A stretch of DNA of 64,000 nt, taken from positions 124,001-188,000 of the forward strand of contig NZ_JAENHL010000003.1 in assembly GCF_016595235.1 (NCBI RefSeq). The letters run 5' to 3'. Below are positions 43,661-46,283 of this stretch, in pieces. This DNA comes from Taklimakanibacter albus (lineage in GTDB: Bacteria > Pseudomonadota > Alphaproteobacteria > Rhizobiales > Aestuariivirgaceae). The notes under the pieces were generated by a model. That model saw nothing but the letters and a program-made list of their open reading frames with translations, did no database searches and was not told where the DNA came from. Position numbers and translations under genes: made by a program. Each line of letters starts with the position of its first letter. Within the stretch, counting starts at the first letter, position 1.

Positions 43661-44410
43661 TTACGGCTGCTCGACATCCGTCTTTTCGATCTTGCTCAAA
43701 CGCTGGCGCTTCGACTTGACCAGGATGTTGAGCGTCTCGACGCTGAGCGAGAAGGCGATGGCGAAGTAGATGTATTCGCGCGGGATGTGCATGCCGAGGC
43801 CGTCGGCGACGAGCGCCACGCCGATCAGCAGGATGAAGGCGAGGGCCAGCATCTTGACGGTCGGGTGCTTGGCGATGAAGTCGCTGACGCCACGCGCCGA
43901 CATGAGCATGACGACGATGGCGATGACATTCGCCGCGATCATCACGGGGAGGAAGGTGGTCATGCCGACCGCGGTGATGATGGAATCGAGCGCGAAGACG
44001 AAGTCGATCACCATGATGAGGGCGATCACGCCGAAGAAGCTCGACGCATAACCCTGCTTGGGACCTTCCTCGCCGCCTTCCATCTCCTCATGGATTTCGG
44101 CCGTGCCCTTATAGAGCAGGAACAGGCCGCCCAGGATCAGGATGATGTCGCGCCAGGAAAGTTCGAAACTGCCAATCGAGAAGACCGGATAAGTGAGCTT
44201 GGTGATCCAGACCAGCAGCGCCAGCATGGCGATGCGCAGACCGAGCGCGCCCAGGAGGCCGATCTTCTGGGCGATCGGGCGCTGATGCGGGGGCAGCCTC
44301 TGAGAGGCAATGGAGAGAAAGACCAGATTGTCGATGCCGAGCACGATCTCAAGGATGGTTAGCGTCAAAAGGCTCATCCAGCCTTCGACCGTGAACAGCC
44401 ACTCAAACAT
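43661..44410 (-). CDS. TerC family integral membrane protein
   Basis: The 249-residue protein has about seven to eight membrane segments and the TerC signatures EIVLGIDNLVFLSIASQRLP and VIDFVFALDSIITAVGM, each with a membrane aspartate. Family members relate to tellurite resistance and, in several bacteria, manganese export or metalation of exported enzymes. No manganese (yybP-ykoY) riboswitch was recognised upstream. Confidence 0.93.
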   Translation of the reverse strand: MFEWLFTVEGWMSLLTLTILEIVLGIDNLVFLSIASQRLPPHQRPIAQKIGLLGALGLRIAMLALLVWITKLTYPVFSIGSFELSWRDIILILGGLFLLYKGTAEIHEEMEGGEEGPKQGYASSFFGVIALIMVIDFVFALDSIITAVGMTTFLPVMIAANVIAIVVMLMSARGVSDFIAKHPTVKMLALAFILLIGVALVADGLGMHIPREYIYFAIAFSLSVETLNILVKSKRQRLSKIEKTDVEQP

Positions 44411-44569
44411 TGGGTCCCCTTTGCCCGTTGATAGAACATAATTCGCGCGTGACTGAAGGTAAGGATTTTACCCAATCGTCCCGCGCGTGCAATGTGAAGG
44501 GACCGGATCAACCGCTTCCGGCCCCATAAGAGGCCACATAGGAAGCCCCCCGCCGGCCTTCAAGGCGGA

Positions 44570-44597
44570 TTGACTTAAAGTCCCGATTTGTTAGAAC
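44570..44597 (+). promoter_or_regulatory. Candidate promoter of the asd leader
   Basis: TTGACT (44570-44575), a 16-base spacer and TAGAAC (44592-44597) would start transcription near 44604, about 24 bases before the leader ORF and 240 bases before asd. The rest of 44411-44569 holds only terC upstream sequence. Confidence 0.5.
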
Positions 44598-44627
44598 CCG
44601 CTCCGAAACCTCGAACCACGGTCCCCG

Positions 44628-44732
44628 ATGTCCTATATCGTTGACAGCATCGCTTGCCGCCCGCTTCCCGCGGGTGCGCTTTGCCGTGGCCTGGGTAAGC
44701 TCAAAACGACGAAAACGACGAAAACCGTTTGA
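44628..44732 (+). CDS. Candidate Lys/Thr-rich leader peptide of asd (34 aa)
   Basis: ATG at 44628 opens a 34-codon frame ending with TGA at 44730-44732. The product starts MSYIVDSIACRPLPAG and its last eleven residues are KLKTTKTTKTV, with four Lys and five Thr codons. Lysine and threonine are the end products of the pathway that runs through Asd, so this looks like an attenuation leader. A 9-bp stem begins five bases after the stop. The run comes from a 9-base tandem repeat (AAAACGACG), so chance expansion cannot be excluded. No strong ribosome binding site was seen. Confidence 0.5.
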   Translation: MSYIVDSIACRPLPAGALCRGLGKLKTTKTTKTV

Positions 44733-44736
44733 GCCT

Positions 44737-44767
44737 TCTCCCCCGGTCTCGTCTCCCGCGGGGGAGA
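44737..44767 (+). promoter_or_regulatory. Hairpin(s) after the leader ORF, possible attenuator
   Basis: TCTCCCCCG (44737-44745) can pair with CGGGGGAGA (44759-44767). An alternative TCTCCC at 44752-44757 can pair with GGGAGA at 44762-44767, so two mutually exclusive stems share one arm. No T-run follows, so this is not a plain intrinsic terminator. Confidence 0.4.
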
Positions 44768-44842
44768 TGGCCGGAAAGCAGCACGCCCAGGCAGAACCGC
44801 CGAGGTTCACGGGAGAGGGCGAGGGATAGAGGATAAAATTCA

Positions 44843-45880
44843 ATGGGTTACAAGGTTGCAGTGGTCGGCGCGACAGGCAATGTCGGCCGCGAAATGCTCA
44901 ACATACTGGAAGAGCGCCAGTTTCCGGTGGACGAGATCTTTGCCATCGCGTCCCGCCGCTCGCTCGGCACCGAGGTCTCCTATGGCGACCGGACGCTCAA
45001 ATGCGTGGACCTCGAGACCTTCGATTTCCGCGGTATCGACTTCGTGCTGATGTCGGCGGGTTCGGCCGTCTCCAAGGAATGGTCGCCCAGGATCGGCGCT
45101 TTGGGGCCGATGGTGATCGATAATTCCTCCTGCTGGCGTTATGACGCGGAAGTCCCGCTCGTGGTGCCGGAGGTGAACGCCCATGTGCTCGAGGAATATA
45201 TGCGTCGCAAGACGCGGCAGAACATCATCGCCAATCCGAACTGCTCGACCGCTCAGCTCGTCGTGGTGCTGAAGCCCTTGCACGACCTCGCCAAGATCAA
45301 GCGCGTGGTGGTCTCGACCTACCAATCCGTGTCGGGTGCCGGCAAGGAAGGGATGGACGAATTGTGGACCCAGACCAAGGGCATCTTCGTCACCGATGCG
45401 CCGGACGCCAAGAAGTTCACCAAGCAGATCGCCTTCAACGTCATCCCCCATATCGACGTCTTCATGGAAGACGGCTTCACCAAGGAAGAATGGAAGATGG
45501 TGGTCGAGACCAAGAAGATTCTCGACCCTAAGATCAAGCTCACCGCAACTTGCGTGCGTGTGCCGGTCTTTGTCGGCCATTCGGAAGCGGTCAATATCGA
45601 GTTCGAGCGCCCGATAACGGCGGAGGAAGCCCGCGAGACTTTGCGTGAGGCGCCGGGCGTGCTGGTCGTCGACAAGCGCGAGGACGGCGGCTACGTGACC
45701 CCGGTCGAATGCGTCGGCGATTTCGCCACCTTCGTGTCGCGCATCCGCGAGGATGGCACGATCGAAAACGGCCTCAGCCTGTGGGTGGTTTCCGACAATC
45801 TGCGCAAGGGTGCCGCGCTCAACACGGTGCAGATCGCCGAAGCGCTGATCAATCGCGGCCTTCTGCAAAGGGCCGCGTAA
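44843..45880 (+). CDS. asd: Aspartate-semialdehyde dehydrogenase
   Basis: The 345-residue enzyme reduces aspartyl phosphate to aspartate semialdehyde, the branch metabolite for lysine, threonine, methionine and diaminopimelate. It begins MGYKVAVVGATGNVGREML (NADP site). The catalytic Cys134 is in ANPNCSTAQLV, and ATCVRVPVFVGHSEAVNIEF carries the conserved Arg and His. AGAGGA precedes the ATG. Transcription probably starts more than 200 bases upstream and crosses a leader ORF. Confidence 0.97.
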   Translation: MGYKVAVVGATGNVGREMLNILEERQFPVDEIFAIASRRSLGTEVSYGDRTLKCVDLETFDFRGIDFVLMSAGSAVSKEWSPRIGALGPMVIDNSSCWRYDAEVPLVVPEVNAHVLEEYMRRKTRQNIIANPNCSTAQLVVVLKPLHDLAKIKRVVVSTYQSVSGAGKEGMDELWTQTKGIFVTDAPDAKKFTKQIAFNVIPHIDVFMEDGFTKEEWKMVVETKKILDPKIKLTATCVRVPVFVGHSEAVNIEFERPITAEEARETLREAPGVLVVDKREDGGYVTPVECVGDFATFVSRIREDGTIENGLSLWVVSDNLRKGAALNTVQIAEALINRGLLQRAA

Positions 45881-45893
45881 CTTACGCATTATC

Positions 45894-45917
45894 CCCTCTC
45901 CCCTCAGGGGGAGAGGG
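45894..45917. repeat. Palindromic element after asd
   Basis: CCCTCTCCCC and GGGGAGAGGG pair perfectly around a short TCA(G) loop, 13 bases after the asd stop. It resembles the element at 3379-3406. It may end asd transcription, but no T-run follows. Confidence 0.6.
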
Positions 45918-46042
45918 TAAAGCCTGTGGCAGGATTGTCACATTCTGTCAGTATAAAGAGCGAATGCGCAAAAATCCCCCTGTCGGATGCGCTCGACTCA
46001 TGCTATCTAGCCCGTCCCTGAACACAACACATGGAGACCGTC

Positions 46043-46078
46043 ATGATGACAGCACGTAAGGAGCGTCGTTTACCGTGA
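46043..46078 (+). CDS. Mini-ORF 1 (11 aa, basic)
   Basis: GGAG at 46033-46036 stands six bases before an ATG that opens MMTARKERRLP and stops at 46076-46078. The TGA overlaps the GTG of the next mini-ORF (GTGA). Four of its eleven codons are Arg or Lys. It may be a regulatory leader peptide for the 66-residue gene 205 bases downstream. The 403-base gap 45881-46283 holds no other coding frame that I trust. Confidence 0.3.
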   Translation: MMTARKERRLP

Positions 46079-46146
46079 TCTCCGGGCCCCCGGGCTCGGT
46101 CCCGGTCTGGCCTTTCCGCTTGTGTTTGCGACATCCCAAAGCCTGA
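46075..46146 (+). CDS. Mini-ORF 2 (23 aa), overlapping mini-ORF 1
   Basis: GTG at 46075, with AAGGAG eleven bases upstream inside mini-ORF 1, opens a 23-codon frame (ISGPPGSVPVWPFRLCLRH and two more residues before the end). The 4-base stop/start overlap is the arrangement seen in translationally coupled genes. Composition alone does not prove coding. Confidence 0.25.
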   Translation: MISGPPGSVPVWPFRLCLRHPKA

Positions 46147-46283
46147 AGACCATTTGACCGGGACGTGACTCTCGTCTCATGCGCGTGACGCGCATGCGCG
46201 GGACGATCACGGATCACGCATTTTCTCATTTTTGTTCATTTTTCAAACGCGCACGCACTTCTGTGCTCCGCGAAAGGAAAATC

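Follow-up and report, generated by a model that had tools for sequence, protein, structure and literature searches.

The window analysed here is a 64,000-nucleotide stretch of the Taklimakanibacter albus genome, and the region of interest lies directly upstream of a gene that we take to be asd, as named in the preliminary description of this DNA (Table 1). The gene is preceded by a short leader ORF (44628-44732), and 110 nt separate this ORF from the asd start. Its translation confirmed the 34 codons and the nine Lys or Thr codons in the final eleven that the preliminary description had reported, and the caveat raised there also held, as the run contains a 9-base tandem repeat at 44703-44725. 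When ORF tails in all six frames of the whole window were compared, more than five Lys or Thr residues in the last 12 codons occurred in 1 of 1093 tails, and this was the asd leader. Elsewhere in the genome, AARACNACNAARAC was matched six times, with two of these matches inside the asd leader itself, and no similar leader was found in front of hom, lysC and two dapA-type genes, where at most 4 of 14 codons were for Lys or Thr. Another short ORF, ending in AKTTKTKKD, is present at about 1420-1530 of locus L325 (G000:C7:1025991); it is not located before asd, and its end may be due to chance.

Table 1. Location of the features of the asd leader region in the window.
Feature	Coordinates	Strand	Basis
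Probable promoter: TTGACT at 44570-44575 and a weak -10 element at about 44591-44597	44570..44597	+	By eye; TTGAC conserved in relatives
Leader ORF, 34 codons, MSYIVDSIACRPLPAGALCRGLGKLKTTKTTKTV*, C-terminus KLKTTKTTKTV	44628..44732	+	ORF list and translation; counterparts in relatives
Control region, Lys or Thr in 9 of 11 codons, AAA for 3 of 4 Lys codons	44697..44729	+	
Arm A, directly after the leader stop, expected to be covered by a ribosome located there	44734..44745	+	A:C covariation
Arm B, inside the A:C loop, partner of D	44752..44758	+	B:D covariation
Arm C, partner of A	44759..44770	+	A:C covariation
Small hairpin GAACC/GGTTC, between C and D	44794..44808	+	Minimum free energy (MFE) fold of the window sequence
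Arm D, pairs with B, ends 26 nt ahead of the asd start codon	44810..44816	+	B:D covariation
Likely asd Shine-Dalgarno sequence AGGA	44830..44833	+	By eye
asd, aspartate-semialdehyde dehydrogenase, 345 aa	44843..45880	+	Homologous genes found throughout relatives

With z -0.67, the folding energy of the segment 44600-44870 does not stand out, and it is uninformative by itself. A strict scan of 44300-45000 detected no terminator-like site, in agreement with the earlier remark that a T-run is lacking. Rfam 15 gave no match to the leader at gathering score, and the two sub-threshold matches in 44300-46200 are both located outside of it. The window sequence alone makes a weak case, and the decision rests on the relatives. 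Downstream of asd, two other elements were observed. Directly past the gene, at 45889-45935, there is an inverted repeat, CCCCTCTCCCCTCAGGGGGAGAGGG, which is perhaps a terminator or a dispersed palindrome, and for which Rfam returned a sub-threshold whalefall-1 match only (17 bits versus 37). Further on, at 46030-46170, three genus mates show strong conservation of a block containing a short ORF (ATGATGACAGCACG...) and a GC-rich inverted repeat; this block had no match in Rfam, which was searched up to position 46200.

A DNA search of 60 genomes revealed, beyond the genus, six loci from other genera with a match directly before asd, ending in Lys/Thr codons. For a systematic comparison, up to 700 nt upstream of asd were taken from two sets of genomes. 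The family set goes back to 69 searched genomes, of which 60 matched Asd and 56 included the gene start, and 53 of these were used. For the other families of the order, 150 genomes were searched; 146 gave a match, 141 of these lay outside the family, and 112 were used, the remainder including partial matches. Under a strict rule, requiring at least 6 Lys or Thr in 12 codons and a stop 60-135 nt before asd, a leader was found in 44 of the 53 family genomes and in 49 of the 112 other-family genomes. In the same place, the antisense strand gave 0 and shuffled sequences gave 0/265 and 0/560, and windows farther upstream yielded 0 to 4 hits in the sense and 0 to 1 in the antisense direction. A wider rule, with at least 6 Lys or Thr in 14 codons and a stop 60-210 nt before asd, identified a leader in 105 of 165 genomes, representing 27 of the 47 families of the order. 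The preliminary description had named relatives without the ORF or without Lys/Thr codons as the observation that would speak against its proposal; with the wider rule the leader was present in 46/53 family genomes and 59/112 genomes of the order's other families, as well as in 26/46 loci of two sister orders discussed below, and it was absent from 20/47 families. Relatives are not independent of each other, and the tests on 26 families reported below are based on one genome per family.

Among the named loci, which are the best 80 of the scan, 53 carry the leader, and the leader-bearing genera include Sinorhizobium, Rhizobium, Neorhizobium, Mesorhizobium, Aminobacter, Devosia, Microvirga, Chelatococcus and Roseibium. 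Named loci without a leader belong to Bradyrhizobium, Hyphomicrobium, Methyloligella, Rhodoblastus and Ancylobacter. In some groups, Bradyrhizobium among them, the leader is absent from every sampled member (named loci L279, L288, L290, L300 and L307), and the same is true of families f2, f7, f18, f30, f31, f33, f34 and f50.

Within the family, the runner-up amino acid pair, Thr/Val, was found in 19 of 53 genomes. In the other families Ala/Thr was found in 50 of 112 genomes, equalling Lys/Thr, because Thr dominates there. Compared with the base composition, Thr and Lys were each enriched 7-fold in 27 family representatives, which had been preselected for Lys/Thr, and the values for Ala, Met and Ile were 1.2, 1.3 and 0.8, respectively. 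The relatives encode the Lys/Thr run with different DNA, and the order of Lys and Thr changes from one to the other while the composition stays. Since composition rather than sequence is kept, protein conservation misses the leader. There is also a marked choice between synonymous codons. In the last 14 codons of the 53 named leader loci, Lys is encoded by AAA in 134 of 150 cases, whereas asd of the same loci uses AAG for 1145 of 1213 Lys codons (19 AAG and 1 AAA in the window), and the share of AAA was higher in the leader than in asd at 52 of the 53 loci. This AAA preference, together with the variable order of Lys and Thr, fits sensing based on decoding and not a peptide motif.

The sequence upstream of the ORF had been called promoter-like. 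TTGACT at 44570-44575 was not among the matches of a strict sigma-70 scan, but a TTGAC box is conserved upstream of the leaders of relatives. Among genomes with a leader, 42 of 45 in the family and 54 of 58 in other families have this box 60-210 nt ahead of the leader stop (shuffle expectation 4.2 and 4.9, respectively), mostly at a distance of 150-200 nt.

For the RNA between the leader and asd, covariation was examined in a family alignment (A3) of 50 of the 51 candidate sequences, with G007, which has Thr only, dropped. RNAalifold found the A:C helix unaided in these 50 sequences, and 5 of its 8 pairs show double-sided changes. When B:D is counted along with A:C, such changes affect 14 of 18 pairs, amounting to 85 double-sided cells versus 27.4 in shuffled and 13-44 in slid alignments. 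The covarying stems that the preliminary description suggested looking for are thus present, and so are the alternative partners implied by the competing second stem it mentioned. The hairpin it placed five bases past the stop exists as well; its position needs adjustment, as the stem can begin 1 base past the stop, with A pairing to C. Own partners were compared with the partners of other families in 26 families, using one genome each, 2000 permutations and 19 pairings. Own partners were better for B:D, with 0/2000 permutations as good, and for A:C, with 14/2000; weaker results were obtained for A:B (58/2000), C:D (92/2000) and B:C (128/2000), and no advantage was seen for A:D (606/2000). On its own, A:C would fail correction for the 19 tested pairings, so that most of its support comes from covariation within the family. 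Taken one at a time, the sequences give a weak signal, and the best B:D helix reached p <=0.05 in 23 of 114. The distance from D to the asd start, which is 26 nt in the window, is mostly 15-35 nt elsewhere, with the search confined to the last 50 nt. The A:C and B:D helices cross, so that they either exclude each other or form a pseudoknot.

Other pairings were considered too. The MFE structure of the window sequence is a nested alternative, A:D + B:C, which was rejected since its covariation is mostly at control level (39 double-sided cells versus 22.5 shuffled, with 2/500 shuffles reaching 39, and 18-32 slid) and its own-partner values were the above-mentioned 606 (A:D) and 128 (B:C) of 2000. 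Pairing of B with the Shine-Dalgarno segment was rejected as well, as 1970/2000 permutations were as good, which is not above chance. At 29 Rhizobiaceae-type loci, a conserved hairpin pairs the end of B with C. An arm inside the leader scored 0/2000 for pairing with A, yet it is scattered in place and weak in the window, and we regard it as a lead only. When the first 11 nt after the stop were masked in equilibrium folding, Shine-Dalgarno accessibility went from 0.53 to 0.55 and the expected B:D pairs from 3.2 to 3.5 in 26 representatives; in all 102 sequences the latter changed from 2.6 to 3.6 (43 up, 34 down). Masking A in equilibrium folding thus gave no clear sign of the switch.

To return to termination, terminator-like sites were present after 7 of the 105 leaders in the order to which the window belongs (0.8 in shuffles), and an intrinsic terminator was therefore rejected as the general output in this order. 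A slightly different scan gave 5/105 leaders, and 6/53 at the named loci; five of the latter six sites and two of the former five are one Mesorhizobium-type hairpin located outside arms A-D. T-runs of at least 4 between the stop and asd were found in 23/105 cases versus 5.4 in shuffles, and are thus commoner than chance. At two loci of family f28, L192 and L194 (G202 and G095), a 10-bp hairpin with a T-rich stretch is situated at most 13 nt past the leader and 69 nt before asd; inside this order, the arrangement may be a return to the terminator type or a remnant of it.

Outside the order, 40 of 104 matched genomes in the class were taken, mostly the best matches, and 4 of these 40 had a Lys/Thr leader before asd; in the two that were inspected, stems with T-runs were present. 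Two sister orders were then covered by 16 loci from 16 matched genomes (the order of G250), with a second, weak match set aside, and by the best 30 of 59 matched genomes (the order of G256). A leader was found at 11/16 and 15/30 of these loci, respectively, and it was followed by an intrinsic terminator in 11/11 and 12/15 cases (0.2 and 0.1 in shuffles). An example is L341, with AAAGGCCGCA-CCAGA-TGCGGCCTTT and then TTGTTTTTG. The segment directly past the stop can pair with the 5' arm of the terminator over at least 5 bp in 20 of 23 cases (shuffled A: mean 13.8, maximum 19, in 200 sets). In 17 of the 23 the pairing extends to 6 bp or more, compared with a mean of 5.5 and a maximum of 11 for shuffled A. 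Judged by sequence, the leaders of the sister orders have the textbook attenuator layout, that is, a predicted terminator and mostly an arm A capable of antitermination. At L361 and L366, in the order of G256, a GGCCCGC/GCGGGCC hairpin follows the leader and no T-run follows the hairpin; these loci are possibly intermediates between terminator and terminator-free forms.

The arrangement can be compared with several known systems. The thrL leader of E. coli contains Thr and Ile codons and regulates thrABC. The asd leader resembles leaders of the thrL/trpL type in having an ORF whose control codons specify pathway products, and stems that would exclude each other; the intrinsic terminator and antiterminator arm are shared in the sister orders only. 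Unlike E. coli thrL, it has Lys and Thr codons, with Ile not enriched (0.8), and unlike thrL/trpL, it mostly lacks a terminator in the order of the window, where its two helices cross. The asd RNA motif precedes asd genes in Streptococcus and relatives; this is another phylum, and the asd leader has no Rfam match.

In the open-licence literature, to which the search was confined, we found no work joining leader peptide, aspartate-semialdehyde dehydrogenase and attenuation. The available passages of one article list other alphaproteobacterial leaders, with asd not among them (PMC1273637), and those of another mention Caulobacter leader peptides and use "asd" for anti-Shine-Dalgarno (PMC4117421). 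The preliminary description knew of no asd leader peptide in Hyphomicrobiales, and in this respect it needs correction, as SEP5 of Sinorhizobium has already been suggested as a leader (PMC10117765). In S. meliloti, SEP5 is a translated small ORF in the 5'-UTR of a gene termed aspartate dehydrogenase, with six Thr and three Lys codons towards its end; it is described as a possible leader peptide, and as conserved only in Sinorhizobium, in the passages available (PMC10117765). At the level of this description, SEP5 is matched by the leaders before asd in S. americanum (L281) and S. psoraleae (L298). The passages give neither structure nor mechanism for SEP5 (PMC10117765). What is new beyond the SEP5 suggestion is the breadth of the leader, the codon choice, the crossing helices and the terminator-bearing relatives. 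A further parallel is the LEU element of actinobacterial leuA, which, according to the available passages, combines a leader ORF containing a run of product codons with a predicted pseudoknot, involves the Shine-Dalgarno region and has no obvious terminator (PMC1262725). In the LEU element it is the run of codons that pairs with the Shine-Dalgarno box, and its authors are sceptical that translation of the leader exerts control (PMC1262725). The asd leader also differs from it in phylum, gene and amino acid.

Two features expected of attenuators in general are found here: a conserved upstream ORF with product codons, and two crossing, covarying helices, one arm of which adjoins the stop. Based on these comparisons, we consider it likely that the leader acts as a ribosome-mediated attenuator of asd that would sense how much charged tRNA-Lys and tRNA-Thr is available. 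If one or the other of these tRNAs is short, the ribosome would stall in the Lys/Thr run, leaving A free to pair with C, and this would be the ON state, a direction suggested by the likeness of the layout. When both are plentiful, a ribosome at the stop would cover A, so that C is released and the opposing structure could form, giving the OFF state. The OFF structure would be the intrinsic terminator in the two sister orders; in the order of the window it would be the B:D helix, which lies a short way before the ribosome-binding site of asd. A pairing between the leader ORF and A, for which the candidate is the scattered arm mentioned above, would supply the basal OFF state of a classical attenuator. 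The thrL-type Lys/Thr attenuation originally proposed is thus supported by the relatives, but not as a strict thrL-type transcription attenuator in this order, because the intrinsic terminator is mostly absent (7/105). For the same reason, asd in this order is probably controlled through translation or through Rho, and since B:D would be the opposing state and D lies near the asd start, control of translation initiation is favoured, with Rho as the main rival. This last step found no support in equilibrium folding.

According to this rival, the leader is an attenuator that ends transcription early, through Rho or in some other way; the C-rich arms A and B would be candidate Rho sites, hidden or exposed by the ribosome and the stems. 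The C-richness of both arms is consistent with this, as are the scarcity of terminators (7/105) while leader and stems remain, the control at transcription that the layout of the sister orders points to, and the equilibrium folding, which did not show the Shine-Dalgarno region to be masked. However, the arms sit in stems, the stretch upstream of asd is G-rich, and the proximity of B:D to the asd start suggests control of initiation, which makes a Rho-dependent output rather unlikely, though a serious competitor to translational control. Far less probable is that the peptide itself acts, either as a nascent chain that arrests its ribosome or in trans, with Lys and Thr as part of a sequence signal. 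Tagged SEP5 accumulates in S. meliloti, according to the available passages (PMC10117765), which could agree with such an action, but here only the composition is kept and the order of Lys and Thr varies, the choice of AAA over AAG would be invisible to a peptide, and the sister orders carry terminator and antiterminator arms. That the leader is a functionless product of chance, a low-complexity repeat next to a chance hairpin, as the tandem repeat and the ordinary folding energy might suggest, can practically be dismissed, given that relatives encode their Lys/Thr codons in other DNA, that the same-place controls were empty, that the stems covary, and that terminators occupy the same place in other orders.

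Lysine, threonine, methionine, isoleucine and diaminopimelate, a precursor of the cell wall, are all made via Asd, and it would be unusual for one leader to respond to two products of such a branch point. In proteobacteria, no leader peptide that senses lysine is known to be established, apart from the suggestion made for Sinorhizobium. Tentatively, and with slightly less than even confidence, we propose that one Lys and Thr leader sensor controls Asd across alphaproteobacterial orders, and that Hyphomicrobiales swapped the terminator for a crossing-helix, pseudoknot-type switch by the asd ribosome-binding site, by which the output would have moved from transcription to translation while the control codons and the antiterminator arm were kept. 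That this leader carries a terminator in two orders and largely lacks it in a third is a natural experiment on how the output of an attenuator changes, and a small ORF described as specific to Sinorhizobium becomes a widely conserved, probable regulator.
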